This document shows, piece by piece, positions 27,201 to 49,535 of a DNA stretch of 64,000 bases; position 1 is the stretch's first letter; every line of letters begins with the position of its first letter. This DNA is from Xiphias gladius. Taxonomy: Eukaryota; Chordata; Actinopteri; Istiophoriformes; Xiphiidae. The stretch is taken from contig NC_053414.1 of NCBI RefSeq assembly GCF_016859285.1, forward strand, positions 4,671,517 to 4,735,516, given 5' to 3'. A program made the position numbers and the translations under genes. The notes below the pieces were generated by a model. It ran no database searches, was not told where the DNA came from, and was given only the letters and a program-made list of their open reading frames with translations.

Positions 27201-30200
27201 AAGGGAAATTCACAATGCCAAAGCTGAAAATACCCAGCTTAGACCTATCAGGTCCAAATGGAGCAAACATTGATGTAGATGCATCTCTAAACAGCCCAGA
27301 TTTGAATTTGCCTGAGATGGACCTTAAAAAACCCAAACTAGATCTTTCTAGCCCAGATGTCAACTTACATATGCCCTCAGGTAAATTGAAAGGACCAGCA
27401 TTGACAAAACCAAATGTTGACTTGAATGCTCCTGACATGCATATTGATGATCCCACAAGCAAATTTCAAATGCCCAAATTTAACCTCTCAGGCACATATC
27501 CAAAAGGACCAAATTTGGAGATAAACACTGATCTAAATTCACCAAATCTAAGTCTTAAATCTCCAAAGATAAAGGGTGGAATTGATGTCCCTGACTTACC
27601 AAACATGGACGTTAAAGCTTCCAAGTTACACGTGAACAATCCAGATGTCAACATTGGTTCACCCAAAGCAAAATTAAAGATGCCCAAATTAAAGATCCCT
27701 CAATTTAGTCTTCCAGGCCTAAAAGGACCTGAGATTGATGGAAATTTAGATGGTCCAGACATGGATATTAATGCACCCAATGTCACTCTCAAAGGTCCTA
27801 AAGCTGATTTAGAAATGCCAGATGTTGATATTGCTGGTCCATCAGGAAAATTCAAAAAACCAAACTTGAACCTGCCTGATTTGAGGCTTTCTGGTGCAAA
27901 GTTAGATGGCCATGAATTTGACTTTAAATCACCTGACCTAAATATCTCTGGTCCCAATCTCAGTGGTGGAATAAATCCACCAGACCTAAATATACCCAAG
28001 GCTGACCTCAAAAGCCCCAAGCTAGACCTCAGTACCCCAAATGTCAATTTAGACATGCCATCTGCCCGACTGAAAATGCCAGAGCTTCATGCTCCAGACT
28101 GGGATGTTAATGCTCCCTCAGGCAAATTGAAATGGCCAAAATTTAATCTTTCAGGTACACTGCCAAAAGGACCAAATATGGACATAAACACAGATCTGGA
28201 TTCACCAGATTTGAGTCTCAGATCTCCAAAGATAAAGGGTGGAATTGACGGCCCAAACTTGCACTTACCAAACACGGACCTTAAAGCTCCCAAGTTAGAC
28301 ATGAACACTCCAGATGTCAACATTGGTTCACCCAAAGCAAAGCTGAAAATGCCAAAATTGAAAATGCCAAAATTTAGCCTCCCACACCTAAAAGGACCTG
28401 AAATGGACGGAAATTTAGATGGCCCAGATGTAGATATAAATGCACCCAATGTCAACCTCAGAGGTCCTAAAGCTGATTTAGATGTTGATATTGCTGGTCC
28501 ATTCGGAAAATTCAAAAAGCCGAACTTGAACCTGCCTGATTTGGGGCTTTCTGGTCCAAAGTTAGGTGGCTCTAAATTGGACCTCAAATCACCTGACCTA
28601 GACATCTCTGGTCCTAATCTCAGTGGTGCAATAAATGCACCAGACATAAACATGCCCAAGGTTGATCTAAAAAGCCCCAAACTGGACCTCAATACCCCAA
28701 AGCTCAACTTAGACATGCCATCTGGTAAATTGAAAATGCCAACACTGGCAAAACCGAAGGCTGAGCTTAATGCTCCAGAATGGGATGTTGATACTCCATC
28801 AGGCAAATTGAAATGGCCTAAATTTAATCTTTCAGGCACATTGCCAAAGGGACCAAATATGGATGTAAACACAGATCTAAAATCACCAAAGATAAAGGGT
28901 GGAATTGATGCCCTTGACTTGGACTTACCAAATATGGACCTTAGAGCTCCCAAGTTAGACATGAACACTCCAGATGTCAACATTGGTTCACCCAAAGCAA
29001 AGCTGAAAATGCCAAAATTGAAAATGCCAAAATTTAGCCTCCCAAACCTAAAAGGACCTGAAATGGACGGAAATTTAGATGGCCCAGATGTAGATATAAA
29101 TGCACCCAATGTCAACCTCAGAGGTCCTAAAGCTGACTTAGATGCTGATATTGCTGGTCCATTTGGAAAATTCAAAAAACCAAACTTGAATCTGCCTGAT
29201 TTGGGGCTTTCTGGTCCAAAGTTAGGTGGCCCTAACTTGAACCTCAAATCACCTGACCTAGACATCTCTGGTCCTAATCTCAGTGGTGGAATAAATGCAC
29301 CAGACATAAACATGCCCAAGGTTGACCTGAAGAGCCCCAAACTGGACCTCAATACCCCAAAGCTCAACTTAGACATGCCATCTGGTAAATTGAAAATGCC
29401 AACACTGGCAAAACCGAAGGCTGAGCTTCATGCTCCAAACTGGGATGTTGATGCTCCCTCAGGCAAATTGAAAATGCCTAAATTTAATCTTTCGGGTACT
29501 TTACCAAAAGGACCAAATATTGACATAAACACAGATCTGAATTCATCAGATTTGAATCTGAAAAGTCCAAAGATGAAGGGTGGAATTGATGCCCCTGTCT
29601 TGGACTTACCAAACATGGACCTTAAAGCTCCCAGGTTAGATGTGAACACTCCAGATGTCAACATCAGCTCACCCAAAGCAAAGTTGAAAATGCCCAAATT
29701 GAAAATGCCTAAAGTTAATCTACCAAGCCTACAAGGACCTGAGATTGATGGCAATTTAGATGGCCCAGACGTTGACATCAGTGCACCCAAGGTCAGCCTC
29801 AAAGGGTCCAAAACTGGCTTTCAAATGCCAGATGTTGATTTTGGTAGCCCATCTGGAAAAATTAAAAAGCCACATTTCCAAATGCCTGATGTGGGGTTTT
29901 CTGGTCCAAAGTTAGATGGCCCAAACTTTGACTTCAAGTCACCAGATCTTAATGCCAAGTTACCGAAAGGACCGAATTTGAACTTAAATTCAGACCTCAA
30001 AACTCCAGATTTGAATCTCAAAGCTCCAAAGATGAAAGGTGGAATCAATGCCCCCCAGTTGGGTTTATCAAATGTGGACCTGAAAGCTCCAAAGTTAGAT
30101 ATGAACACGTCGGATGTCAGCATTGGTTTACCTGATGAGAATTTCAAAAAGCCCAAAATCAAGATTCCAAAAGGCCCAAATGCTTATATAAATGCAGATT

Positions 30201-31303
30201 TACAGGGACCTGACCTGAATATCCCAAATGTAGACGTTAATGGTCCAAGAGGAAATTTAAAAATGCCAGGTTTAAATACACCAGACCTCAGTCTCTCTGG
30301 ACCTAAGACAAGTCTCAAAGGTCCAGACGCTGACATGAATGTTCCGTCTGGAAACATCCAGGGTCCTCAGACTGATCTTGATTTGGCAGACAGAAAATTG
30401 AAACTCCCTTCCCTCAAGCTGCCTCAGTTTGGAATCCCAGATCTTAATAGGGCAGGGTCTGATATTGACTTTGGTGCATCTCTGAGACCAACAAATCTGG
30501 ATATTTCTCCTCCAAATGCAAAACTGAATGTAAAACCACCCAAGTTGAAGGGGGATATCCCAGGTCCAAAGGTCAGTGCTCCAAACATGGACCTCAACGT
30601 GCCTAAAGTGGCAATGCCGAATCCAAAGCTGCATCTCAAATCTCCAGATCTTAGCATTGATGATCTTTCGCTAAATTTCAAAGGACCTTCCTATAGGAAT
30701 CGCAGATCAGATATGACAGGTGTGAAAATGAATATGCCTGATCTGGATGTAGATGGAGATGTCAGATTTCATCACACTGATAGAAAGTCATCTAGGACCA
30801 AAGTAAGGTCCAGCTACCCTCTAGTGGATGCAGATTTTGGCCACCATATTGATTTCAACCGTTCAGATCTCAACATTGATGATTTCACAGGAAAGGATCA
30901 CGTTCGTAGAGCCAGAGGTTCAAAACTGGACCTCCAGGCATCACGTAACCCTGGACAGGGGATCTCCCAGTCAGGTGTTAAGGTTGACATGAGGGACCCC
31001 AGACACAGCAGAAGAATCCCGGCTGGTGCCACTGATATATATTCAAAGCACCAGAGAACAATGCAGCCTGTCCCGACAGCTCGTTTGCCACATTTGTCTC
31101 AAGATTCAAGAATGAGAGAACCTGACAGTTCAGACGGATACTACGTCACTGTTTTTCCAACTCAGACGCAAAATCAAAACATGCCAAACCGTAAATATAA
31201 CACACTTGGAGGGCTTGACTTTCGTCCAGGAAACATGGACCTTGAAGTTCCAGGTAAAACTGACCTTAAAGGGTCAACGTTCTTTTTCTCCAACCTCATA
31301 TAG
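24207..31303 (+). CDS. AHNAK/periaxin-family PDZ-and-repeat scaffold protein
   Basis: Exons: 24207-24327, 24858-25027 and 25379-31303 (phases 0, 1, 0), preceded by a possible 13-codon exon at 22203. The first two code for a PDZ-like fold (LTLERSEEGGLVISSIND, then GDEILGASINFDQLSKEEVL, where GDEILGA is the typical PDZ beta-strand/turn), closely following the AHNAK N-terminal layout. The third exon opens MLKDSYSKLYNDKIKKF and then runs 1974 codons of Lys/Pro/Asp/Leu-rich repeats of the AHNAK type: GPDxDI, KxPKxKxPKFSLP, SGPKxxG, SPDLDISGP. The repeats end at about nt 30650; the C-terminal 200 residues are basic and Arg/Ser/Asp-rich, with NLS-like RNRRS and RRARGSK. TAG is at 31301-31303. AHNAK proteins are giant scaffolds at the cell cortex that bind annexin/S100A10, Ca channel subunits and actin. 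At about 2080 residues this is shorter than mammalian AHNAK (about 5900) and nearer periaxin in size. The repeat sequence favours AHNAK; I leave the symbol blank because the paralogue cannot be settled here. Confidence 0.85.
27640..29720 (+). repeat. Higher-order tandem repeats of 660-680 bp in the AHNAK-like exon
   Basis: Landmark ccagatgtcaacattggttc recurs at about 27641, 28310 and 28970, and in altered form at 29651, giving spacings of about 669, 660 and 681 bp. The block 28310-28969 and the block 28970-29629 align without indels over most of their length, with long identical runs such as aaaggacctgaaatggacgg. Within each block, smaller units of about 30-40 residues repeat. The 220-codon unit preserves frame. 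Confidence 0.85.
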
Positions 31304-33457: not shown

Positions 33458-36400
33458 ATGCTTCGTTTCTCTCTGGTGGCTTGTGTCCGAGGAGCCGGTA
33501 GAAGGGTGAGTGACTTCAACGCCGCACGGGAACCTCACTCCGCTCGGCACGCGCGGTTCAACGTAAGGTCCGCTGCAATTGTGAGACCGTTGGTGAATAT
33601 CCACAGTCACGGACGTCCATTTTCTCTTTAGCGCTTCAAAGTTCACACATATCTAATAATAACATATTAATATGAGACCTGGGTTCACAGAGCGCTTCGC
33701 AGGAAGATCTGCACACAAGAAGAGTCCCAATCAGACTTTGTGCTAGAAGCTGTAAAACGGAATCTTCAGAAACAGCTAACAGCAATAAGTCAAATAAATA
33801 AACTATCTGACCGTTTCTCATTACCGATTAATACGTCGATTCATTTCCAATAATCCATCAGACATTTATTCTTTATTTCCCGTGAATCACTTTTTTTTAG
33901 TTTTGTCAGGTAAAAGTGATATAAAAAGTTTTCTGATATTATAATTTAGTCTGTTAATTAACTGAAAGAAGAGGAGAGAAAAAACAAAACAATTTCCCAG
34001 AGCCCAGGGTGACATCATGGAATTAATAAAAATATCTTTAATTTACAAAGATGTTTAACAGAGAAAATCAATTCTTCACAATAAAGAAGCGGCTCAACCT
34101 TTGCCAGTTTTTCTTTGAAGAATGACTGAAATGATCAATTGATCATCAGAACGGGTGCAGATGAGTTTTCCGTCAAACTATAAACGGTTGTTGCTGCAAC
34201 CTGAATCTTTTGTCTCCGGCTGTAGGAGCTTACGATGGATCCAAAGCGTCGCTGTCTTCAACAGCGTAAACTCTTATCACTTTCTCGTGACTTCAGCCGC
34301 TGCTTGGACATAACGTCGTCTCAATCACAGATGATCTGGATGCAGTTCTGTCAGCCAGGAGGTCAAATCCTTAACTGTGTACTTTAACCAAAGTGTGATG
34401 TGGAGTCGTCTCTAAGCAGCAGCTGGATGTTTTTAGTGTGCGTTTCCTTCCCACTAACTCCGGGGTTTTCTCCTCCTCAGCTTTCCTCGTCGTTCTCTGG
34501 TCAGAGCGCTCTACCTCCAAATCTACTGCTGCCTACCAACCTCGTGGATCCTGCCAGATTAAGTGAGCCTGAAGCTTGTGGCGTTTGGTGTTTGAAGTTC
34601 AGTATCAGATGTATTTGAAGTTACTCTACGTGATATTTTATACCAGTAATCGTCCAAAATGAGAAATAATGTGTTTTTTCCCCATTACATCGTTAAGGGA
34701 CAAACGAAACTCCGTTCAGTGTTAACGGTTCCCACTTCAGGTGTCACAAACTGAAGTGAGACCGCTGAGACCACGACTAGGACGTCCCTCACTGAGCGGT
34801 CTCGTGTTTCCTCCTGCAGAGCGTCCTCCTCCTGCTGCAGACTGCTCCCTGCCCCTTCTGAGGAAGTGCGATGCCGTCGTTCCCGCTCACCTGAGCCCCG
34901 TCCGGACCTGGGTGGAGTCTCTGGAGAGGCAGGACAGCGAGCCGTTGGGCGTGGCCCAGCTCCACCCTGACGTCTTTGCGGCGCCTCCGAGGTAAAGCGC
35001 AGTCCGGCGTTTTTTTTTCACCTCGGTGTCGGGAGAGGATTGTTAGTTCTGCCCTTGAATCCAGTCACAAAGGGAAGGTCTGTGTGAGGTGGGAGACTTG
35101 TGTGAATCCCGGGTTCATCGCTTGCTTTGTGTTTCCCTCCCCTCAGGCTCGACATTCTCCACAACGTTGAAACGTGGCAGAGGAATTACAAAAGAATCGT
35201 AAGTCACAGATTTACGCCGAGATATTTGTCCTGCACGCTGTCGGGTGGCTCCATCTCGTATTTGACGTTGTGTTGTGAGATGCACTGTGGACACCTCCAG
35301 GCTTCAACTGTAACCAGATAAACACGAGTCTAAGCATTTATGTTTTAATATATTAGTCACCGCGTAGACTCTCACGTGTGTTCATTGTTTTGTTGATTTT
35401 AATGGCGAGACAAAGACACATTTCCTGCTGTAGTGGGACAATTAAGTTCGGTTATATTCTATCAAAACTCTTTTAAATGTGCATCAAGCTCGTAAAGTGA
35501 TCAGACAGCTACAAAGACTTTTTTTTATGTTATCATTTATTAGTTTTATTTTCTAATCTTACAATGAAAAGCCGTATTTATGCATGAATTTCGCCTCACC
35601 AACCGTTGTCTCCATCTTTCAGAGCCACGCCAACACAAAGATCAGGTCAGAGGTCAGAGGTGGGGGCAGGAAGCCGTGGAGACAGAAAGGGAGCGGCAGA
35701 GCTCGTCACGGCAGCATCCGGTCGCCGATATGGAGAGGAGGTGACTGTTTTGATGGTTTTACTGTGAAATGTGGTTAAACCCGCGTGTTCCATTTGTCCG
35801 CTTCGTCTTTTTTAATATAAACGAAGCCAACGCCCCGGCTGCGTAGTCAGGATACAGCGCCGCCACCTTCCTCCCGAGTCGACCAGGTTCACCATCTTTC
35901 CTCAGTCGTGTGATCTGGAGAGATTCACGGGTTTGAAATCAGAGGAGGCCTGACAGGTGATGTCTCCCCCTCAGGTGGGGTGTCCCATGGACCCAGAGGG
36001 CCGACCAGCTACTACTACATGTTACCCATGAAAGTCCGAGTGCAAGGACTCAAAGTGGCGCTGAGCTCCAAGATGGCTCAGGTAACTGACACCTGTTAAA
36101 CTCATTTAAACAATATCCTCAACCAAAGGAAAGCGTTTTGTGATGCACGTGTATTTTGGTTTTCAGTGCTAAAAATAGCCTTAACATGTACAGTCCAGAA
36201 AGTTACACACTTTTCTGTTCTTCAGGCTCTGAGCTTCAGTGAATGTAAAATAACAGACGTATACTAAAGTGAAGAGTCTCCGCTTTAATCCGAGCAGTTC
36301 AGTATAGAAAGAACGGTTTGGGAGATACAGTCCTTTAAACACACAGTGCCCAGAGTTAAGGGGGTCAAAAGTAATTGGACGGATAAAACATGAAGTGAAA

Positions 36401-38584
36401 CAAAGTTATTATATTTAATATTTAGTGGCAAATCCTTTATGCCAGTGACGGTCTGAAGTCTCTGACCCACAGACATCAGCAGACTCTTTGTATCTTCCCT
36501 GGTGATCCATTGCTGCCTCCTGAGGCTCTCGCTGCTAGGGGTCTCTGCCTCTGGTCTGGTCTTCACCCAGTGGGACTGAGATCAGGCGACCGACTCGGCC
36601 GCTTCGAGGAAAAGCTCGCTGGTTGCTTTGGCTGCATGTTTAGGATCGTTGTCCTGCTGAATGATGAGACGTTGCTCGGTGAGTTCTCATGCATTTGGCT
36701 GAACCTGAGCGCAGGTTGCTCCTGTGAACCTCAGCATTCATCCTGCTGCTTCCATCGGCAGTAATAGATGCCAGTGTGCCGGTTCAGTTGGAGCCATACA
36801 AGCCTGAGCCATAAGAGAACCACCGCCGTGTTTGGTGGCTTTGGGTCCTGAGCTGCTCGTTTTTTCTCCTTCCTCTCCATCATTTTGACAGAGGTGGATT
36901 TTTGTTTCATCAGTCCATAGACCATGGTTCCAGAGCTCGACCGGTTTCTGTGAACTGCAGCCTGGCCTTTCCGTTTTTGCATCTTGTTGTGAATCCTCTG
37001 AGGTCGTGGTCATGAAGTCTCCTCTTGATCGTCTTTCTTCCCCGTGAAAAAGACTTGGGCTTCTCGGTCTAATGGCTTTTTTGCCAGTTTGTAGTTTCCC
37101 TAATCCATTATTTTATTTCAAATTGAATGTGAAGCTCAGAGCCAGAAGAACAGAAAGTGTGTACCTGTCCAATTACTTATGACCTGGACTGTTTTTCCAG
37201 TGTTTTGAGTCTTTTTCTCCAGTGTGAGGCACCGGAGGTTCAGCAACATTAAAAATGCACCGAACCAGAACCTTGTTAAGGAGATAAGGCAAAGATATCA
37301 ATCTGTTTGCGTTTTAAAAATTGCTTTTTATATTCCAATTTTCATAGACCTGTTTTTAAAAATCATTTTGGCTTGCAACAGTTATTTTCATTATCGGTAA
37401 TTTTACAGACTCAAAAATGTCAAAAAAAAAAAAAAATGCCCATCACAACTTCTCTGAGCTGAAGTTGATTCTTTCACATGGCTCATATTGTCCCACCATC
37501 AGTCCAGAACCCACAGGTGTTATATTTACTCTCTTATGATGAGGAAGAAGAACAAACCCTCTCATGTTAGAGGCTGGAGCCAGTGAATATGTGGATTAAT
37601 TTTCCTCCAACAATTGTTCTTGTGTTTTTTTTTTTGTGTCGACCCCATTCTGAACCGAATGCTGCGTGTTTTTCCAGGACTACCTTCACATCGTGGACTC
37701 CCTGAACATCCCCACGCCGGACTCTCAGTACCTACTGGACCTCATCCGACACCGACACTGGGGAGAGTCTTTGCTAATAGTCGATGTGTGAGTATCATCA
37801 ACCAGGGCTCCCGTGCATCTTAACAAACTGTTCATACAAAAAATGAGTTTTAACGTCTATGCTGGTTACGTGCAACCAAGTTGCTGTTGCTCTTTGCAGA
37901 GGTGAAGAGTTTCCTGAAAACATTCTCCAGGCCACAGCAAACTTAAAGACAGTGAACATCATTCCAGCCATTGGTGAGTTGGGATTCAGCATTGATGCAT
38001 CTAAAGGTTTGGAAATGTTTCTAGTAGTAATGCAGCGGCGTCTTGTTTCACAGTAGGTTGATATTTCTTCACATTAAAAGCAATTTCCGAACCAATAAAT
38101 GGCAGAAAAACCCCCCCCAAGAATTTCTATGTTTTAAATAAGATTGAACTGATTCCTTGGTGGAGAAAAAGACTTTAAATACATTTTAAAAAATTCCTGT
38201 CACTTTTCTTTTAATTACAAAACGCTGTGTGGCGCCGGGTTTACTGAATTCCATGGTAATTTTGCTAAACAAGTTAATGGTGGCAGGCATAAAGCCTGAA
38301 TTAGCAAACGTCACCCTGAAGACGAGCGCTATTAAACATCTCTCTCTTGATCATTTCCTTAACTTTATACAAAACAGAGCTGCACCGGTTTTTTACCTCG
38401 TGTCAGCAGCAGATGTTTTTGTCTGTTTTCTCGGGCAGGTCTGAACGTCCACAGCATGCTGAAACACGAAGCCATCGTCCTCACTCTGGAAACGGTCAAG
38501 TTTCTGGAGGACAAGCTGCTCTGGCACGACCAGCGTTATACACCTCTGTACCCGTTTAAACTGCCCTACTCCGACTTCCCGTAG
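33458..38584 (+). CDS. mrpl4: Mitochondrial ribosomal protein L4 (uL4m), complete, 9 exons
   Basis: Large-subunit protein of the mitochondrial ribosome; uL4 lines the upper peptide exit tunnel and binds 16S rRNA. Exons: 33458-33505, 34481-34562, 34820-34991, 35147-35198, 35623-35740, 35975-36081, 37678-37787, 37900-37973, 38439-38584; all GT-AG, phases consistent, 302 residues against 311 in human. The N-terminus ([16 protein letters not shown]) is Arg-rich without acids, as expected for a matrix targeting peptide. The conserved uL4 loop [19 protein letters not shown] is at residues 131-149, followed by SPIWRGGG and [11 protein letters not shown]. Later motifs include [11 protein letters not shown] and the terminal [13 protein letters not shown], which matches human closely before an early stop that removes the divergent mammalian tail. 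Intron 6 (36082-37677) holds a Tc1-like relic. Confidence 0.96.
36191..37191 (-). mobile_element. Decayed Tc1/mariner-like transposon in mrpl4 intron 6
   Basis: Inverted termini: the left end begins cagtccag at 36191 right after a TA dinucleotide and contains acacacttttctgttcttc and ggctctgagcttca; the right end, read in reverse, begins cagtccag and contains acacactttctgttcttc and ggctctgagcttca. Inner subterminal pairs with aattggac also match. On the minus strand a broken transposase frame is readable at about 36740-37010 ([21 protein letters not shown]), close to the Tc1-family catalytic region, but it has frameshifts and stops. At about 1.0 kb it is shorter than intact Tc1 elements (about 1.6 kb), so part is deleted. 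It is not capable of transposition. Confidence 0.8.
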
Positions 38585-38673
38585 AAGCCTTGACGTTACC
38601 TGTAATATATTCACTCACTGCAGTGAGCCAGTTGTTTTCTTAATGTGTTTATTATGTTTAACAACAAATCATT

Positions 38674-38679
38674 AATAAA
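38674..38679 (+). terminator. Poly(A) signal of mrpl4
   Basis: AATAAA 90 bp after the mrpl4 stop codon. It is the first such signal and is consistent with a very short 3' UTR. Confidence 0.6.
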
Positions 38680-38712
38680 TAATGCCAATGATAAAAATAA
38701 AAAATGCAGAGT

Positions 38713-38718
38713 TTTATT
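38713..38718 (-). terminator. Poly(A) signal of hyls1
   Basis: On the minus strand AATAAA lies 36 bp beyond the hyls1 stop codon. Cleavage 15-25 bp further would fall at about 38690-38700, next to the predicted mrpl4 cleavage site on the other strand. Confidence 0.6.
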
Positions 38719-38753
38719 AAAAGTGTCTAAAAGGCATGTGGAGCGCAAAAGGC

Positions 38754-41700
38754 CTAAAATCGATAGCTGAATTTGTGAGGAAGGAGGCCGTTTGCTAAAT
38801 CGTTCCTGATCTCCCAGCGAAGCGCCGAGCGTTTCTTCTCCGTTGGCACGATGTAGGTGTTGGGCACGTAAACTCTCCGAGGTTTGGGCTGCAACACAGA
38901 ACAAACCAGGACTTCTCAACCGAAATGTGTACATGTCCGAAGGTTCTCGGTCCACAGTAGAGCTTGGAAGATAAAACTCTGGAAAACTGCGTAATTTTCA
39001 CCACCACACCACAGTCTATGGACAGAGGTGTCAAAGGACTGCAGAGCTGAGACTCTCAACCGAGTCACTGTCTTATATTTGAGCAGTTGTGCTGCAAACA
39101 AGATGATCAGTTTTTGACTGTTAAATATTGCGTCTCAGTGTGGACAGAAAGCAAATACACAAGCATTCTGTCCACCTTAAAAAGAAGTGCGTCAGTGAGA
39201 ATAAGGACTCTGAATTCTGATCTGCCGCCTAAATACACTAGGAAATGTTAGTGGCATCAAATGGCAGTGAGAGGCTTCAGCTGCGTGGAACAGTAAATAC
39301 TTGGTCCACAGACAGGACAGCCTTCTCAAACGCAGCACTAACTAGATGACGCTGCAGCTTTACAGCGAATATTTGGGGAAATACTTACTGGTGGAGGCTG
39401 GTACGCAAGACGTTCCTGAAAACAAAGGGAAAACTCGTTAAAGGAAAACACAAAATCGTTGTGAAGCAACAACTAAAGCCACGTGTTACAGAGGCAGGAC
39501 TTAGTAGAGAAACTTATACATTTTCTGGTACAAACTGACAAAGTGTTGGTGCAATGTGTTAGTGCCTCGTTCAGCCAAGAGTGAAAAGTTAAGATGTGTG
39601 AAGGATTAGAAGCTGGGTTGAACGTGACCCTGCGGGAGGAGCTTGAAGGAGGGAATATTCTTGAACTACACAAAAAAAAGGAAAGACAGAAAGCTCAGTC
39701 CTCTGTACGAGATACGTTTTCATACCTTAATCTCCCAGCGGAGAGCTTTCCGGTCCTTCTCTCCTGGAAGTTTGAACATTTCCCACAGCTGCTTATACTG
39801 GAAATACCTGCAGCGATGAGGAAACCGCAGGATCACACGAGTCCACTACCTGCAGACCGGCATGGCTCTGTTGGCAATGAGAAACCTTCGCAGAGGGTTT
39901 TGTTTTTGTAAACTTACTTGGCCACTGGGTCGGTCTTCTTTATGGTCGGCCGACTCATCACTGGCCGGATGACTGAAACAAAAACAAATTTCAGTCAAAT
40001 TATAAACGGGTCTGTCCGGTGTCAGTACGAACACAACAACATGCGTCGGTGCATTAGGTGGGTGCTGACTTACAGGATTTGGGTTTGGGCCTGAGGTCCC
40101 CTTCACTTTGAGTTCGAGTCTGTCCGAAACGAAATGGGACAAATCATCATGTTCAAGGACATTTGATGGTCTTTCATTTCTGGATGCATTTTGATAAAAG
40201 GCAGTAAACAATCATAGCAGTAAAGAACGTGACACTTTTTCAATGATACCTGAAATAATCAGTGATATTAGATACGAGTTGCATTGATTAAAAATAAATA
40301 AATAAATAAAAAATTCAGTAAAACAAGTTCAGTATGTCAAACAGATGTGAAGAAGAGAAGCGTGAAGTAAAACCTGGGAGACTACATTACCCACCATGCC
40401 TCTGATGTAGGATTCAAACGCACTCAAAGAGATGCCGTCGGACTCGGAGCCGTGCGCGTCACTCTGGCCGGTTGCGTCTTCGTCCTCCGTCTCGGCGTCG
40501 TGTTGGGCGGACGCGGACAGGCGAAGCTCCGCCAGTCGTTCCTCCAGGCAGCTCGACGCATCTGCCGAGAGACAACATCACCGGCATTTTGCTGAATGTG
40601 TGGGCATGGCGGTCACCAGACAACGAAACCCATTCAGGTTCATTTGTTGGGATTTGTTTTTCCCCGCAGCTGGCAGGCGGACTCAGACCAGTACACAGTC
40701 ACAAGACCGCCTCTGGCGTTTAGTCTGCTGCAGCATCTGTGACATCTGCTCCGTCTCTGTCGACAGCGAGAAGGAATCGGTTTTTCATGGCTACAACTGA
40801 GCGTAAATTACTCTTGATTATCAATCTTAGTCAGCTGGTCACATCCCGGTTTACTCAGCATCAACACTGACCTGAACGATTTCGGTTTCTCGATCAAACA
40901 GACTTGAAACATATATTTTTTCTCCCGGAAAATAAAATATGTTCATACAAATTCACTTAGGAGACACATCTTTGTACATGCTTAAACAACAGAAAATCCC
41001 ACTGACCTCCAACAAGCTGTTGGCCAATAAATACGTTTTTATACAAACAGCCAATTATGTCTTGCCCCAAGAAAAGAGTAGCAACGTAACGACAGTTATT
41101 TCAGATTGAAAGGGATGTGAACCAATGATTAATCTTCAGTTTATTTCTGGTTCTTATTTGCTTGTTAGATTGAGAAAATAAAATTGAACAAGTTATTCAA
41201 ATTCCCGTATAAGACTTTCACTTGGAGGAACGCAGCTGAAGGAGTCAATACTTTTAACTGCATCGCTTTCTTCGAATGACCAAATTTGAAACAGGTGAAT
41301 GTCCCAAATGCTGCAGGGGCAGAACTAAACGATCATTACGAGTCGATGCTGTTCGAAATGACCCGAATCTGGGATTCCGTTTTACAAACAGCTGGAGTCT
41401 AAATTTTTCAGTTCTATCCAGTGGTTCATGCTCATGTTGGACAGTGACTTCCTGCCAGGAGGTAGGCGGGAAGTTTATTTTGAACTCGGATGTTATTCAG
41501 GACGAAGAAAGAACTTGAGCCTTTTAAACTACCTGATATCCTGACAACGACGCCGCCTCAAAGTCGAAGTTGAGAAATAAACAGCATAAATGTTGTTGCT
41601 CATAGAGACAGGAAACCATTTACCCTTCTTCCGCCTGAGGTTTCCTTCCCACTCCTCACACATCTTGTCGTACTTCATCCAGCTAAAGTCCGCTTTGGAG

Positions 41701-44700
41701 TCGATGAACTTTATGTCCTTGTTGCTTGAAGACTCGGCAAGATCTTCAGACTCCACTTTGTCCTCGGTCTGTTTCTCCACATTATTGCCCTCTTTAAGGT
41801 CTTGCACCTCCTCTTGAAGCTTTTCATACTGTGTTCCCTCTTCAGGATCACTCCCATGTTCCAAACGCGTCTCGTCCGCCAATAATCTGTCTTCGTTAGC
41901 AGCAATGTGGTGGCGGTGTTGTTGCTCTGATCTCTCATTAGTCACGTCTTTGTTTTCGGACTCTGCGTGTAGATCTTCAAATTTCTCGTCATAGGCCTGG
42001 TCTAGATCCTCTTCGGGTTCGTTGTCTTCTAAAACACTTACTGGGCGAGTCTCGTCGTAGTCTGGCTCACATGTGGATTCAAAGTCAAACCTGCCGAAGC
42101 TGCAAAGTGAACGATCGTCCCCTTCGTGGTCTGTCATCTCAGACAGGTCTGCTCGACTGTCTTGGTCAAACTCGGTTATGGTGTGGTCGTCTCTGTAGTC
42201 TCCTCCCTCCTGCTCCTCTGGTCTGTAGGTGCCATAGCCAGAGGTCATCAGACTCGGAGCTGGACTGCTAGAACTGCTGCTGCAGTTTTCTTCCTCCTCC
42301 TCATTACTTCCGTCTTCCAAACTTTTTCCAGTGAAGTTCCCCTGGGTGGTCAGCTCAGGTTTGTCCTTCTCTGAAGCCTCCTGGATAGAGTCTTCGGCCT
42401 CAGATATAGGATTAGAATCTTCCTCTTTAACCACTCGCTCAATCTTCTCCTCCTCCTCCTCTTCCTCCTCTTCCTCCTCATTACTTCCATCTTCCAAACT
42501 TTTTCCAGTGAAGTTCCCCTGGGTGGTCAGCTCAGGTTTGTCCTCCTCTGAAGCCTCCTGGATAGAGTCTTCGGCCTCAGATACAGGATTAGAATCTTCC
42601 TCTTTAACCACTCGCTCAATCTCCTCCTCCTCCTCCTCCTCCTCCTCTTCCTCCTCCTCATTACTTCCATCTTCCAAACTTTTTCCAGTGAAGTTCCCCT
42701 GGGTGGTCAGCTCAGGTTTGTCCTCCTCTGAAGCCTCCTGGATAGAGTCTTCGGCCTCATCTACAGGATTGGAATCTTCCTCTTTAACCACTCGCTCAAT
42801 CTCCTCCTCCTCCTCCTCCTCCTCCTCCTCCTCCTCCTCCTCCTCCTCTTCCTCATTACTTCCATCTTCCAAACTTTTTCCAGTGAAGTTCCCCTGGGTG
42901 GTCAGCTCAGGTTTGTCCTCCTCTGAAGCCTCCTGGATAGAGTCTTCGGCCTCATCTACAGGATTGGAATCTTCCTCTTTAACCACTCGCTCAATCTCCT
43001 CCTCCTCCTCCTGATTTTCTCCCTCAGACCAAAAAGAGGAGTTGAGGGAATTCTTGTCATCGTCTCTCCCCTCGTCCCACTGAGTGTTGTACATTTTGTA
43101 CATGGTGGCGACTTGCAATCTTGTTGAGGTGTGCGCCAGTGTGTGATCTGAGGAGGAAGTGGGTTTAAGGAAGGAGCTAAGAGGATTAAGTCGGTATCCA
43201 GGAGCCTCAACTGCTGTTTTACTACCAAAGCAGCACCTACTGCTGGTGACCAAAGGTAATACACCTCTGCTTTTTGTTATTTGTTCCTTTCATTTGATTC
43301 TATATCACTTGATCCCACAGTTTCATTCTATCCACGCCATTCCAGGGTATTATTTTGGCCTTTATTTCACAGTAGAGTGACAGGAACTTGACACGGGGAT
43401 GTAGTGGCTGGACCGTATGAGTCACCAAACCACCAGAATAAATCAGTGTTTAGTTTTCTTGTGTTTCTGTTTTTTATGCCACTTGTTGCACAAAGAATTT
43501 CTTCTCGTAGTTAAGATCTGAAGTGAATTTTTCCACATGAAACTTTTTGTGAAACTTGTAACTTTGTGACCCAAAAGTGCATAATGACCTGTATGTTTTC
43601 AGCAAAATCCTCTAAAATGGATAGCAGTTAAAATTACCTTTACCTGTGACGGTAACTTATTTTTATAACAACAACATTTTTAGGTATTTAAAATGCGTAT
43701 CTCTCTAACTGAAAAACATCGGGTCAGTATTGTATTTTAAATGTCTTCTTTAAACATTAAGTATTTTTTTTTTTTTTTAAATCAGGGTGCTTATCCTGAT
43801 TTTAATTTTTTTGTTTTTTAAATTTATGTTATTTTACGTGAATTGACTCTTTATTTCTTTACCACTGGAATTGGTTTGACCTATTTTATTCTACTCCAGT
43901 TAATGTCTTTTGCTGCCTTGCAGTTCCCCATTTTGATCGGGCTTTATATTTTATTTTACAATTTGTTCATATTAATTTGGGGTTTTGAGAAGTGTTCTGG
44001 TAATAAAGATAGTTATTACTGTTACATACAAATATTAGAGAAAACAGTTAAAATAGATATTTACAGGATTTTGGAAGAATTTCTTCAAACAGTTGATTCT
44101 ACATTACCTGAGTCTTCGCTGTAGACTGATTCATCGCAGACGAGAGACTGTCCTTTATGTTTCCTAAATGGAAAAGAAACATCACTGTCAATGTTACATT
44201 TACAGCAAAGACTGTCTGTGGGAAACAAATATTAAGTTGAATTACTTACTGTTTAATATTCAAATAAACAGAGGATTTAGGCTTTAGCCCCCCCCCCACA
44301 CACTGATGACAAAATGGATCAATTATAAATTGTAGGTTATTTATTAAACAATCATACAAAAGAGCTTTTCAACACTGCAGTGTATTCCACATCACTATAA
44401 ACTGAATACCTCTGAATGTATTTGCTGGTCAGAAGAAAAAAAATATGTTAAGACACAAGTTTGGGTTCTGTTTTTGATGAGGATTTATTTATTAATGACA
44501 TTTTATAGACTATCAATTGACAGAAAATGTGACATATTATCAATGCTAAAAATGATAATTAGTTGCAGCCCAACTGTACACCAAAAAGCACCTTTATGCT
44601 TTAAGGTGTACATTAATTATTTTGTCCTGTACAAATTATCTGTGGGAATAATTTTTGGTGTGCACAAGATTTAAAAAAAAAAAAAAAAAATTTCCTCCAA

Positions 44701-46931
44701 CTCAAAATTACAGATCCATGTTTTTAATGGAAAATATTGAATGTACTTGTGTTTGACAGAGGAGTCGTCTTCAAAACCAAATTAGATAGTTGAGCTACTT
44801 TTTTGTGACTATTGAATATTCACTTTATTTTAACTAATTTAGATCATTTTTTGCCCTCAGATGCATCCTTACACATCAGATGTTTTTAATGCTTTGTCTG
44901 GTGTTTTCTCAGCTTTTATATACACCACAACTGAGAGAAACACTCAGCTGTATTTTTCATAGCTGGAAAGACAAATAAAACTCTGGAACAACAAATGAAT
45001 GGATGAATGGATGGACAGTCAGCAGGATGAATGGACACAGATTCATCCACAGTCTGGCCTCATACCTTTGTGTCTTTCAAAAAAAAAAAAAAAATTACCT
45101 GAGGACTTTCCTCGTGATGAAGCGTCTCCCCTGGGTGTCTGGGGAGGATGTGTAGCTGTCTGTGAGCGGCGGGTAGAGGGTGTCCTCAAGGTCCGACTCC
45201 ACCTGCAGTCTGGTGGGGGCACCTAGAGGCAGCTGGAGCTTTGGTGCCACCGAGTGTTGAGCGTACGAGTCACAGTGTTCCTGCTGCCGCCCGTAGTCTC
45301 TGTTCTGACAGGTGGCGAGCACCTGTGTGTTAAATAATGCATATTTCTGCTCAATCATTACGTGCCTGACGCTATTGAAAAGTATGACTGTTTCCATTTT
45401 TGTTTGTCCAATCTAAATGTTCATCGTGTCTTGTCAATAAAACAAGTCTGCCGGTAAATGACACCGCACCAAACTTCACAGAACGATCCGGTATCTTCCG
45501 AAGTGATGCAGATGAAATTGTGGGAGCAATTTTCCTGTAGGTGACGCTTAAACAACGTCCTGCTTTATAAAACGCATTCTTTGAAAAACCTACGCAAAAT
45601 GCTAAATTTTCAAATTGCCTTGTCGACTTCCTTACCAAATATCTAGACTAGAACCCGGTCTCTGTAGTGCTGCTTGGAGCTGGAAGGTGTTTCGAGTCTG
45701 ACTATCATGTTTTTACATGCTTTTCCACAGCTCAATAAGATCGTAGTATATTCAAATTGTGAAAAATTTAAAGACAATCACTGCTTGTCCACAACCCTTC
45801 TACAGATGGACTTGTCCCTGAATACCAGCTGAATAGACTCTCCTTACTGTCATTCAGTTTGTGGACTGTGCTATCAGAGGAGACGGGACCCTGCAACTGC
45901 TGTATGCTAATGTTAAAGAGCCTGGTGATTGGCACATTAGTTTTTGCACATTTTTATATTTACTTATTGTGTATTTATTAATATTACTATTTTATAATAG
46001 TTTTTATTTATTTATTTTTAACTTATTCACTTCCTATTCCCTAACTGTGTGTTGTGCAATTGTAAAAAAGCCTTTTCCCTTACGGGGATCAATAAAATTT
46101 TCCTGATTCTGATTCTCTGCAATATAAAGAATCACTCATTTAAACTCTTTCTGATATCAAACACGGGTATTTAGTGCTGCCAAATCCTGGATGTGACGTC
46201 ATGTTGTCTGAATTCGGGGATAAATCAGATGTTGTATGTGGTGAACACTTACCTGTCTCTCATCGCCTGCTTTGGATGCATGTAAGAAAAATCTTTCACC
46301 AGGGCCTTTAAAGTAGCACTGAGTAACTGTAAAGAAAAAAACCCAGAATTCACCAGTTTTCAGTGGAAGATCTTAAAATGTTACACTTAACTGTTTAGAG
46401 TTATAAAAATACAATGATTATCATCATCCCGCAGCGAGATAAGTGCTCCTGACCTTTTTCTTTGGTGTAGGCGGGAGGACTCTGTTTAGATGTGGCTGGA
46501 TGAGTTTTGGTGGAGTTTATCTGGTCGGATGACGCGAGGGTTTCCAATGCTCCATGCCGAATCAGTTCACTGAGATCTGACATGACACAGAGACTGACTG
46601 TAATCCCTTAGGACAAGTCTGAACACGGAACTCATCAGTGTTACGTTTCTCCATGTCTTTAATGTTTTCCGGAGATGTAACTATTTCAGAGTTTAAAAAA
46701 ACCTGACGATATATTGGTAAATATTCACTTTTTAAACATCAGAGCATAATATATTCATCTTGGTCCCAAACAAGCTACAAAACAATATAAGAACCCCAGA
46801 GGGAAGGAGGTAGGACATTTCAGAGTCTCACCTTGCTTGAATTCATGCAGCCTGTGTTTTGGTATGTTTTTGTAGCCCAGGATCGCCAGCTGTTCTTGAA
46901 TTTCCTCTTCTGAGAAATCCAGACTGTCCAT
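38754..46931 (-). CDS. hyls1: HYLS1, centriolar and ciliogenesis protein, complete, 11 coding exons
   Basis: HYLS1 is a centriole protein needed to form the ciliary gate and cilia; a missense change in the human gene causes hydrolethalus syndrome. Coding exons in transcript order: 46931-46832, 46576-46454, 46326-46253, 45322-45099, 44163-44108, 40561-40395, 40119-40074, 39972-39918, 39807-39726, 39415-39389, 38888-38754. All GT-AG, all phases chain, 362 residues (human 299). The start [20 protein letters not shown] is at 46931; the exon continues upstream as 5' UTR to an acceptor at about 46944. Conserved parts: SYAQHSVAP and KVLRR (exons 4/5), RPKPKSF, the HYLS box region [15 protein letters not shown] (about residues 293-307) and the C-terminal [20 protein letters not shown]. 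The motif ALRWEI occurs twice, about 40 residues apart, as in human (ELRWGV/ALRWGV). Intron 5 (40562-44107) contains the acidic ORF described separately. Confidence 0.92.
41140..41145 (-). terminator. Candidate poly(A) signal for a transcript of the nested ORF
   Basis: AATAAA on the minus strand about 390 bp after the ORF stop codon and inside HYLS1 intron 5. It would be needed only if the ORF is expressed as its own gene. Confidence 0.3.
41529..43103 (-). CDS. Acidic repeat ORF inside HYLS1 intron 5 (nested gene or optional HYLS1 exon)
   Basis: The frame is 524 codons from an ATG at 43103 with a perfect Kozak context (gccaccATG). It starts [16 protein letters not shown] and contains four tandem units ([42 protein letters not shown]) each followed by a Glu run. 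It then becomes Ser/Asp-rich ([15 protein letters not shown]) and ends with a more ordinary segment ([20 protein letters not shown]). I do not recognise the family. The unusual point is splicing: an acceptor (cttcctcctcag) precedes position 43147 and a donor (AAGG/gtaaat) follows 41624. Both are phase 1, the 1524 bp between them are a multiple of three, and the host intron is phase 1. It could thus be an in-frame HYLS1 exon or a separate transcript ending near the minus-strand AATAAA at 41140. The low complexity may also inflate its apparent coding potential, but the non-repetitive third of the frame argues for real coding. Confidence 0.65.
   Translation of the reverse strand: MYKMYNTQWDEGRDDDKNSLNSSFWSEGENQEEEEEIERVVKEEDSNPVDEAEDSIQEASEEDKPELTTQGNFTGKSLEDGSNEEEEEEEEEEEEEEEEEEIERVVKEEDSNPVDEAEDSIQEASEEDKPELTTQGNFTGKSLEDGSNEEEEEEEEEEEEEIERVVKEEDSNPVSEAEDSIQEASEEDKPELTTQGNFTGKSLEDGSNEEEEEEEEEEEKIERVVKEEDSNPISEAEDSIQEASEKDKPELTTQGNFTGKSLEDGSNEEEEENCSSSSSSPAPSLMTSGYGTYRPEEQEGGDYRDDHTITEFDQDSRADLSEMTDHEGDDRSLCSFGRFDFESTCEPDYDETRPVSVLEDNEPEEDLDQAYDEKFEDLHAESENKDVTNERSEQQHRHHIAANEDRLLADETRLEHGSDPEEGTQYEKLQEEVQDLKEGNNVEKQTEDKVESEDLAESSSNKDIKFIDSKADFSWMKYDKMCEEWEGNLRRKKGKWFPVSMSNNIYAVYFSTSTLRRRRCQDIR
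42303..43014 (-). repeat. Four tandem coding units with (GAG/GAA)n poly-Glu tracts
   Basis: Unit boundaries on the plus strand are at about 42303, 42480, 42660 and 42855, giving spacings of 177, 180 and 195 bp. Sequence outside the Glu tracts is almost identical between units; length differences lie in the Glu tracts. The longest tract (42799-42854) is nearly pure CTC on the plus strand, i.e. GAG codons. The unit nearest the C-terminus is the most divergent (ISEA, EKDK instead of VDEA, EEDK). Confidence 0.9.
43148..44107 (-). other. HYLS1 intron 5, 5' part
   Basis: AT-rich intron sequence between HYLS1 exon 5 and the acidic ORF. It would have to contain the promoter of the ORF if that is an independent gene; I see no CpG-rich segment or clear TATA box here. 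Confidence 0.4.
46079..46116 (+). repeat. Retroposon 3'-tail signature in HYLS1 intron 3
   Basis: The phrase tacggggatcaataaaattt followed by tcctgattctgattct is like the 3' end of many fish non-LTR retroposons. The 200 bp before it (from about 45860: agaggagacgggaccctgca) may belong to the same insert. The element is 5'-truncated without coding sequence. Confidence 0.45.
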
Positions 46932-46944
46932 AATATTTCCAGCT

Positions 46945-48051
46945 CTAAGTGAAGGAGGTAGTGTAAAATCTATAGGAAAAATAAAAAAGATCCCAGTTGT
47001 AGGAAACACAATACAAACCACAGATACGAAGAAAAACAAGAGGGCTGATTTATGGAGTAAGATGAAGCATCATGAATGAAATTTGACCTTAGTCATCAAC
47101 TTAGTTCTGTTGTATTTACTATACTAATATACAATTCATATAGTATGAATAGTCCACCTCATTAATATAAATGGGTTGGACAAAATATTAGAAACACCTC
47201 TTAGTATAAATTTCAACAGCACCACAAACTGTAGCCTCTAAAAAATAAACAAAGTTAAATCAACACTTCTCTTCAAAAACAAAACTCAGGACAAAGACTA
47301 AGCAATATAAGCTTTATTTAGGTAGTAGTTATTGCTGGGCTGTGGATTAGATTTGCAGTAGTTTTAACGAGGTGTACCTAATATACCGATGAATTAAAAC
47401 AATCGATTTGGAGGAAACGTTTGTTAAAAGGCAAACTAGAGGAAATTTACATTGGTGCTATTAAGCCATTAATACAGAGCGAGAAAGTGCCGACACTTCA
47501 TTCACTAAAGTGGGAACTGTCTAAAATGTGTCTAAATCAAACGAGTCTAATCTTTGCCCACCGAGGAAACGACCGCAGCTGTGGACCAGCAAGTTGCAGC
47601 GTATCTAAACGGAAAAGAAGGTTATATACGGTAGACTTCCTGAGCTTATGTTTCAGTTTTCAAAACTGGTATTTCATGGTAGTATTCTTCGATCAGTTGC
47701 ATCATAATAAACCCGAACTGAGAACTGACAGCTTCGAGCTCAGATGCCATTTAAACAGAGTAAAACTGGCTGCTGCTGCTGCTTTGTGGCTTTTGTGTAA
47801 AATCGAGCCGAAATGACCAATAGACCATTAATATTTCGCAGAGCAGAAAAGTTGTGTTTGATCCTAGCGCAGTTCTTTCTAGTAGGTGCGCCAACTTTAA
47901 ACTAACAGATTTTTGAATAGAGTTTGGCATCCTAGTCTCAATAACTGAGGTGGACGGGGGCGGGCTACTGCTAACAGTTAGCAGCCAAAAGGGCAGTAAA
48001 CAAAAACAATGTTAGCTAATAACAGACTCTTTTTTTTTTTAATTTCTCACC
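46945..48051 (-). other. HYLS1 intron 1 (within the 5' UTR)
   Basis: No coding exon is supported. Between a likely donor at about 48052 (gcgcag/gtgaga on the minus strand) and the acceptor at about 46945. Confidence 0.5.
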
Positions 48052-48110
48052 TGCGCGAAGACCGATTATACCGAAACCATTATGCTAAAATGAACGGCCA
48101 CGTTGACCAG
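48052..48110 (-). other. hyls1: Probable 5' noncoding first exon of hyls1
   Basis: On the minus strand, cggtcttcgcgcag/gtgaga forms a good donor, and upstream lies CpG-rich sequence. This would be spliced to the acceptor at about 46944, 13 bp before the HYLS1 ATG. The exact transcription start is not visible. Confidence 0.45.
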
Positions 48111-48193
48111 AAGTAGTCGTGTTTAAGTTTCACGGGCACGGCACCAAGACAACGGCCGTTAACGAGCTTTAAAAACGACGCCTGGTGCGCTAC

Positions 48194-48201
48194 ACTTCCG
48201 G
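48194..48201. promoter_or_regulatory. ETS-type site in the hyls1 promoter
   Basis: ACTTCCGG (CCGGAAGT on the minus strand) is a consensus ETS/GABP site, common within 100-150 bp of TATA-less housekeeping starts. It lies about 90 bp upstream of the probable first exon of hyls1. Confidence 0.45.
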
Positions 48202-48329
48202 CCAGCTCTTCTTCGTGTTTGTGTTTTCTTTTTTTTTAAGTCTTTGACAAAGCGGTATATGCTGTCGCCACCTACCGGGAGTGTGGCATAAAAAGCAACC
48301 AGGCTACTTTCTCTCGGCGCCGGTCAAAC

Positions 48330-49535
48330 GCCCAGTGGTCGGTTTATTGGGAACAACCGGCTGAAACGAATGCAGCCGAAGACGAGTGCCCGAACTGGGG
48401 GAAGCGTCTGACATTTCAGTAGAAAAATAAATAAATCAAAGAAGAAATGAAAAAAAACGGTTTGTGTAACTGAAACAGTTTTTCTTTATTTTTGTCTTAT
48501 TCCTTCAAATCGTCTTGTGACCGCTTCACATGTATCCTCGGACCCTTTTGGGGGTTCTGACCCCCCCATGTCAGGAGCCGCTGACCTGTAGACTTCACAT
48601 TCGGGTCTCAAGTTTTAATCTAGTGAAATCACAGAACAATGAAATAAATAAATACTTTTATTTATTTTATTTTTTTAAAGGACCCCTTCAGTCGGGCCTC
48701 GCACCGCCACGACCCGGGCCGATTATTCGGCCCATGCACTGGAAGGATGCGGTCGCGGCTAAGGAGGAAAACGCTCTTGAAAGGAAAGTGCCATTTACCG
48801 CGTCGGTCTTGGACTCGAAATGAAGGACCCGAGACTCATTTTGTCTCGGATTTATTGCCAAAAACCAAACAGACAAACAGCAGCTCAGTGAAGTCCTTCG
48901 CACTGAACAACTACAGCTCCCATGAGGCTCCCACTGCGGCGCCTTCATGGCCGTCTGCCCTGACGTCTCTTTTTCTACGGACCACCGACGGGATGCAGAG
49001 CGGGACTCTCGATGACTCTCACGGTGCCGCCGCCCGTGTTGTGTATCGTCACAACTTTAGTTGTCTTGTCTTTATTATCTCGACAGTTTCACTCCTAAAA
49101 CCACAGAGCCCGGTCATGATAATTCAAGGAATAGCCTCATTTTTACTGTTCCACTTGAAATCCTCAACACTTTCCCCCTTTAAAGATTTAAAGTGCGAGA
49201 ATTTGCAAAACACTGAGGTTCTCCGGTCTCTTCTGAAGAACGGTATGAAAAAACGTTTTGCTTCCACTGCACTTTAAGCTTTAAACTTCATTTCCTTCCA
49301 AACTAAAGGTAAGTACACCCCACCCTGTTCGAGCAGAGAGGCCCTCCTCCTCCTCCTCCTCCTCCTCCTCCCCCTCCTCCAGGCTGCGGAGCCTCAGCCT
49401 CTCACGAATTAATCGGTACTTTCTTACATCCTCCCCTTCCAGCAGGCGGTGGCGTCTTAGTCAGGGGGGAGACTGACAGGTGGACCGTCCGGGAAAAAAG
49501 GGACTTGTATCGTCTTCCGTGGCCCTGGGAAGACC
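48330..49535. other. Intergenic region between hyls1 and the collagen gene
   Basis: The two genes diverge head to head here. The region includes a CpG-rich patch (48680-49040), a sequence close to the ZNF143/THAP11 consensus at 48910-48928 (actacagctcccatgaggc), a (CTC)n tract at 49343-49380, and the collagen 5' UTR at the end. I find no supported gene; open frames here do not resemble any family. Confidence 0.45.
49343..49380. repeat. (CTC)n tract upstream of the collagen gene
   Basis: A nearly pure CTC run of about 38 bp on the plus strand, about 155 bp before the collagen start codon. Pyrimidine-rich mirror tracts such as this are frequent in collagen promoters. Confidence 0.7.

Follow-up and report, generated by a model that had tools for sequence, protein, structure and literature searches.

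HYLS1 is a ciliopathy protein that was reported in 2024 to promote the assembly of centriole triplet microtubules (PMC10960023, in excerpt). In the excerpted text of that paper, the C-terminal half of the human protein (residues 151–299) suffices to form superstructures of incomplete microtubules, and aspartate 211 of the HYLS-1 box is modelled as trapping the acidic TUBB tail, a tail that might be repelled by polyglutamylation. A second described system resembles ours in its layout: in Drosophila, another coding unit, chiffon, lies in an intron of hyls1, and the two have a promoter and an exon in common (PMC7253586, in excerpt). The analogy is not complete because chiffon encodes an unrelated replication and histone-acetylation protein in another frame, whereas the element described here would enter the frame of HYLS1 itself. 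That element is an acidic open segment in intron 5 of hyls1 of the swordfish, Xiphias gladius, in a window of 64,000 nucleotides (NC_053414.1, positions 4,671,517 to 4,735,516, assembly GCF_016859285.1) to which all coordinates below refer. From its open coding frame, a conserved methionine, the compatibility of its splice donor and the co-annotation of two forms in other fishes, we think it probable that the segment is an alternative first coding exon of hyls1, with its own ATG, producing a 663-residue isoform.

Intron 5 of hyls1 (44107–40562, minus strand, phase 1) is 3546 nt long. Its longest stop-to-stop frame runs for 586 codons, against a maximum of 193 in 500 dinucleotide shuffles. Even the non-repetitive 3′ part of the segment (760 nt) has an open frame of 252 codons, a length reached in none of 500 shuffles (maximum 167). 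The length of the open frame in intron 5 exceeds chance. The parts of the segment are as follows, with the basis for each in parentheses.

41624..43147, minus strand: proposed acidic exon of hyls1 at its maximal acceptor-to-donor extent, 1524 nt (sequence and relatives)
43148..43200, minus strand: acceptor AG of the acidic exon, with the pyrimidine-rich tract that precedes it (sequence, and back-translation of relatives as indirect support)
43101..43103, minus strand: proposed start ATG of the alternative isoform (MYKMYNTQ...), in the context GCCACCATGT (reading frame and relatives)
42289..43012, minus strand: four copies of a 177-bp repeat coding for poly-Glu (repeat search and comparison of units)
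42228..42245, minus strand: TSGYGT motif (kept in relatives, as counted below)
41625..41732, minus strand: conserved end of the acidic exon (alignment of relatives)
41616..41623, minus strand: phase-1 splice donor gtaaatgg, proposed to join 40561 (sequence and the join point of relatives)

Much of what a first-pass annotation had read from the bare sequence is borne out. The segment is free of stops on the strand of hyls1, is edged by AG and GT and is in phase 1 on both sides; its acceptor reads cctcctcag/ATCACACAC and its donor ...AAGAAGG/gtaaatgg. Inclusion in frame between exons 5 and 6 would indeed give 870 residues without an internal stop, compared with 362 in the canonical product, and the poly(A) signal placed downstream is there (AATAAA at 41479–41474, minus strand). 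Three descriptions were too strong. The segment as a whole is not an acidic repeat, as only the middle (42289–43012) is repetitive. The ATG, 44 nt inside the segment, has a strong context that falls short of the perfect Kozak sequence claimed because its +4 base is T. The donor called canonical has its GT and its phase, but judged by the splice-donor consensus it deviates with G at −2 and A at +5. Just past this donor (41607–41623, minus strand), many unspliced relatives share the read-through residues GK-x-FPV. The intron therefore looks conserved from base +7 to roughly +17, and these bases are perhaps a splicing element that aids a weak donor.

The exon encodes 182 Asp or Glu and 47 Lys or Arg residues (pI 4.05, versus 7.67 for canonical HYLS1). 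For its acidic part, the best Pfam hits, C2_CAPS (E 0.035) and POP1_N (E 0.16), did not pass the cut-offs, and a Protein Data Bank search returned nothing (best 2nwt, E 0.2). Rfam at its gathering thresholds gave no match across 38000–49000, and a 212-residue exon query for a paralogous source in the same genome returned only the acidic exon itself.

Relatives of the segment are numerous. A search with its non-repetitive C-terminal part, which the first-pass annotation had suggested, was made with the last 219 residues; of 962 candidates, 62 proteins reached E ≤ 1. With a 21-sequence alignment as the query, 7988 candidates were scored and 73 reached E ≤ 0.01, including 17 that the first search had not given. 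Together the two place the acidic segment in 79 proteins, 29 of them named or annotated and 50 unnamed (47 from Logan, 2 from ncbi and 1 from ena). The named ones are called trichohyalin, ABC transporter F family member 4, kinX, midasin or dentin sialophosphoprotein, names that are mostly misleading, presumably because of the acidic low complexity; some are called HYLS1 or hydrolethalus syndrome protein 1. The species named among the matches listed are all, as we take it, acanthomorph fishes, including Myripristis (Holocentriformes) and Lucifuga and Genypterus (Ophidiiformes); the taxonomic span rests on these named records, the Logan relatives bearing no species names. Of 120 canonical HYLS1 proteins without the segment that were fetched, including those of Esox, Umbra, Coregonus, Polymixia and Lampris, none contains SGYGT, though their genes may still hold the exon. 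As far as protein sequences can tell, this distribution fits an origin of the exon near the acanthomorph base. TSGYGT itself is invariant in the 21-sequence alignment and present in 77 of the 79 relatives; of the other two, P0039 reads TSGYST at this place and P0079, a fragment, does not cover it.

If the segment is a first coding exon, a conserved start codon is expected inside it, and one is found. Twenty of the 29 named relatives begin at the MYK-like methionine (MYKMYN), two begin upstream in the same frame (P0028 and P0053) and two elsewhere (P0040 and P0046); the N-terminal half of HYLS1 is absent from 24. The methionine column is at least 90% conserved in the 21-sequence alignment. This figure partly reflects the fact that any predicted protein is started at a Met, but the residue is also kept in all nine relatives whose frame runs on upstream.

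The other end of the product points to HYLS1. Its C-terminal end is present in 26 of the 79 relatives, all of them among the 29 named, and by manual reading 22 of these 26 make the join at the point that matches the donor in the window. Those 26 proteins span 348–898 residues, with repeat number and acidic length varying. The three named relatives that lack the C-terminal end are P0027, P0053 and P0062, of which P0027 and P0062 enter exon-6-like sequence and then stop early. Near the donor, a Gly followed by Lys, Arg, Thr, Glu or Asn, a loose pattern that corresponds to GGT plus mostly a purine, occurs in 43 of the 50 unnamed relatives; it is missing in P0020, P0047, P0072, P0073, P0075, P0077 and P0078. 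In Cyclopterus P0050 and P0054, an extra Lys-rich stretch, KEKKTEKKEKKEKKKMTKEKKTKKKK, stands at the exon donor, a basic tract after the acidic one.

These ends bear on the proposal, made alongside the exon claim in the first-pass annotation, that the segment is an independent nested gene, that is, an unspliced transcript within intron 5 read from 43103 to a stop at 41529–41531 and giving 524 residues. Such a gene would be provided with its own ATG in a good context, a frame open to 41529 and an AATAAA downstream, and the 50 unnamed relatives, which mostly read past the donor, are present in the protein collection. A nested gene should also have a conserved stop or 3′ end of its own, and among the unspliced relatives we found none: apart from GK-x-FPV, the read-through tails diverge in length and sequence, while the Gly pattern at the donor point is kept, and 26 of the 29 named relatives run into the HYLS1 C-terminus. 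The start half of the proposal thus stands, with its own conserved ATG, but the end half does not, and we regard a nested gene as highly improbable.

Gene models of the two forms also occur together. In seven species (Sander lucioperca, Dicentrarchus labrax, Labrus bergylta, Etheostoma cragini, Xyrichtys novacula, Spinachia spinachia and Solea senegalensis) both isoforms lie on contigs of identical length, and in Solea senegalensis the acidic and canonical forms share one locus tag.

Several observations weigh against an alternative first exon. Five named relatives, from four species, join the HYLS1 N-terminus to the segment: P0012, P0050, P0051 and P0054 (from Scophthalmus, Antennarius and, in two cases, Cyclopterus) and P0025 (Scortum). 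They are what would be expected of an internal cassette exon, in which 44108 joins 43147 and 41624 joins 40561 to give, in frame, the 870-residue HYLS1 that keeps both halves, as the frame in the window, open throughout, would allow. However, in P0012, P0050 and P0054 the first residues of the exon are missing (no SSFWSD-like motif is present), and the annotated model of P0025 reads the start region out of frame, as RHHVQNVQ instead of MYKMY.

The leaders upstream of the methionine speak to the same point, on the assumption that the phase of exon 5 is equal in relatives. We back-translated the leaders of eight upstream-extended relatives and searched them for AG followed by ATCACACA, leaving out a ninth, P0021, with three residues; P0028, P0053 and P0058 were unclear and were dropped, so that five were usable. 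By this indirect route the site fits at all ten positions in P0003, P0004, P0020 and P0052 and at nine in P0036, whose next site fits seven. A conserved cassette would keep the frame from the upstream junction, and four of the five do not, the distance from acceptor to ATG being 43 nt in P0003, 43 in P0004, 36 in P0020 and 15 in P0036; P0004 also has weaker sites, fitting nine of ten positions, at 61, 52 and 32 nt, the last of them in frame. Leaders that fit a cassette are those of the window (44 nt), P0052 (20 nt) and, by hand reading, Scortum P0025 (32 nt). Three in-frame leaders of seven, against a random expectation of one in three, give no sign of selection for frame. Because the leader frame varies and relatives start at their own methionine, the 870-residue giant does not appear to be a conserved product, and a cassette exon seems unlikely. 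The internal exon originally suggested therefore keeps its donor half, since relatives do join the C-terminal exons of HYLS1, and probably loses its acceptor half, given the starts at the exon's own ATG and a frame that is not conserved. On present evidence both the giant HYLS1 as a conserved product and the independent nested gene are disfavoured.

Further observations count against the alternative first exon. It is probable that the named relatives are computational gene predictions, and four of the 26 that have a HYLS1 C-terminus show additional residues where the two parts meet (P0050, P0054, P0061 and P0065). In the 47 Logan relatives, the C-terminal end and exon-6-like stretches are both absent; most of these proteins continue into intron sequence, and for this reason they look genomic. 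Canonical HYLS1 behaves differently in the same collection: 24 of the 120 canonical matches listed are Logan-only, with 98–100% query coverage on contigs of 1.1–2.5 kb that are apparently spliced mRNAs, and 14 of the 24 pass a strict two-ended pattern. (A direct exon 5–exon 6 junction, sought with a loose regular expression, was matched by 92 of the 120.) Because the spliced canonical form seems to reach Logan and the acidic form does not, the isoform is perhaps rare, tissue-limited or hard to assemble. The poly-GAG tract, (GAG)n, or the branch point between isoforms may break assembly, but expression at a low level or in few places is no less likely as the cause.

One could go further and suppose that the coding segment is conserved but that most of the isoform models are artefacts of prediction, with the exon rarely or never translated today in the window species, decaying or expression-silent. 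The Logan result would be explained in this way, and two other features are consistent with it: the repeat has recently expanded fourfold in the window, and the exon has changed more quickly than canonical HYLS1 of the same species, identity to the window being 61% versus 76% in Sander, 57 versus 73 in Dicentrarchus, 52 versus 73 in Labrus and 53 versus 75 in Solea senegalensis. But the long open frames, the near-universal TSGYGT, the kept methionine and the donor-compatible residues imply maintained function, and an artefact of this kind seems to us decidedly unlikely.

We therefore return to the alternative first coding exon. Translation of the isoform would start at 43103, and the phase-1 donor at 41624 would join exon 6 at 40561, so that 493 acidic and probably disordered residues stand in place of HYLS1 residues 1–192 and are followed by residues 193–362 with the PF15311 domain. 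The recurring AG with its pyrimidine-rich tract suggests that the acceptor is used, and from this we infer a 5′ untranslated exon, with its promoter, from which the acidic exon would be spliced; it could be the first exon of hyls1 itself or one within intron 5. A putative non-coding 5′ exon of hyls1 (48051..48220) is perhaps the partner. The predicted structure of an isoform-type relative, Larimichthys P0007 (modelled with 15 others), has a mean predicted local distance difference test (pLDDT) score of 46, with most of the acidic part below 50 and low-confidence helices at 32–49 and 312–319; better helices appear in the HYLS1 C-terminus alone. This model is as expected of disorder in the acidic part.

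The canonical gene, into which this exon would lead, occupies 38754–46931 on the minus strand, and its 11 coding exons splice cleanly to a 362-residue protein.

48051..48220, minus strand: putative non-coding hyls1 5′ exon ending ...CGCGCAG/gtgaga (read from the sequence; upstream limit guessed)
46832..46931, minus strand: coding exon 1
46454..46576, minus strand: coding exon 2
46253..46326, minus strand: coding exon 3
45099..45322, minus strand: coding exon 4
44108..44163, minus strand: coding exon 5, ending ...SEDS in phase 1
40395..40561, minus strand: coding exon 6, the first exon that both isoforms would share
40074..40119, minus strand: coding exon 7
39918..39972, minus strand: coding exon 8, start of the KKTDPVA region
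39726..39807, minus strand: coding exon 9
39389..39415, minus strand: coding exon 10
38754..38888, minus strand: last coding exon, with the stop TAG

The closest canonical HYLS1 proteins are those of Toxotes (86%), Trachinotus (85%), Seriola (83%), Siniperca (83%) and Lates (82%), matches that by themselves place the window in a percomorph fish. PF15311 (HYLS1_C) matches canonical residues 265–350 (E 8.2e-40), wholly inside the 170 residues (193–362) common to both forms. The proposed isoform and canonical HYLS1 would thus have in common the gene, residues 193–362, KKTDPVA and all of PF15311, and would differ in their front, 192 residues in the one and 493 acidic, low-complexity residues in the other. 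The fish models, mostly misnamed, look orthologous, having the acidic exon and, in 26 of 29, the HYLS1 C-terminus; they differ in acidic length and repeat number, the window having its own four-copy repeat.

What such an isoform might do we infer from the parts that it keeps. The KKTDPVA stretch we take to be the HYLS-1 box, and the aspartate of KKTD (residue 277) presumably corresponds to human D211. The common part begins 84 residues before this aspartate, and 85 residues follow it; if the correspondence holds, it includes the equivalent of human residues 151–299. The 663-residue product thus contains PF15311 with the HYLS-1 box and by construction lacks the N-terminal half of HYLS1. Because the human C-terminal half alone builds incomplete microtubules in the excerpted account (PMC10960023), the isoform may keep microtubule activity, retaining what would be the half sufficient for incomplete, centriole-like microtubules. 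Its acidic tail could vie with that of tubulin for the HYLS-1 box, and in a particular tissue or at a particular stage the protein could act as a version of HYLS1 that is regulated or that restrains.

The TSGYGT motif invites a further comparison. The degrons TSGCSS and SSGYGS of PER are described as similar to the canonical motif of beta-TrCP (PMC11223080, in excerpt). Compared as a hexamer alone, TSGYGT has the spacing and the SGYG core of the PER2 degron SSGYGS, and a likeness of this kind could make the isoform short-lived. As a canonical DSGxxS degron, however, TSGYGT must be rejected, none of the 79 relatives matching D[ST]G..[ST], which tells against this step. No match to TSGYGT turned up in the literature searched, nor did a link between HYLS1 and TrCP, the sole co-mention being unrelated to judge by its abstract. 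At its most speculative, and we consider this version unlikely, the scheme would be that Acanthomorpha evolved a second HYLS1 whose disordered acidic front imitates the acidic tubulin tail, or competes with it, at the HYLS-1 box. A conserved TSGYGT degron would serve to switch this second form off, and the form would be a built-in brake on the assembly of triplet microtubules, with spermatids or multiciliated cells as possible sites.

The first-pass annotation had known of no such exon in HYLS1. For the HYLS1 literature searched, much of it in the form of listings and abstracts, this stands, and we found no description of an acidic isoform there; for the databases it does not, as models exist already. 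The conserved alternative N-terminal exon of hyls1 is real and is already in the databases in predicted proteins that are mostly misnamed, so that proteins called trichohyalin, ABC transporter F4 or midasin find an explanation as products of one gene, hyls1. A conserved isoform that keeps the sufficient half of HYLS1 and exchanges the rest for an acidic tail would also be a ready-made test of how HYLS1 activity can be tuned.

The poly-Glu repeat of the window is built of a 142-nt part and a variable GAG/GAA tract; as the 142-nt parts differ at 0–6 positions among the four copies, their amplification is recent. Acidic repeats seem to have been amplified separately in the window fish (four copies), in Sander and in Zoarces/Anarhichas, with units that differ (P0008, P0009, P0019 and P0063).

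Two other features of the window lie outside hyls1. At 25379–31303 on the plus strand is a 1974-codon open frame of repeats, which matches no Pfam family at E ≤ 0.01 and which we take to be periaxin/AHNAK-like. At 36400–37000 on the minus strand, what looks on reading like a decayed Tc1/mariner transposase lies between or within the exons of a neighbouring gene.

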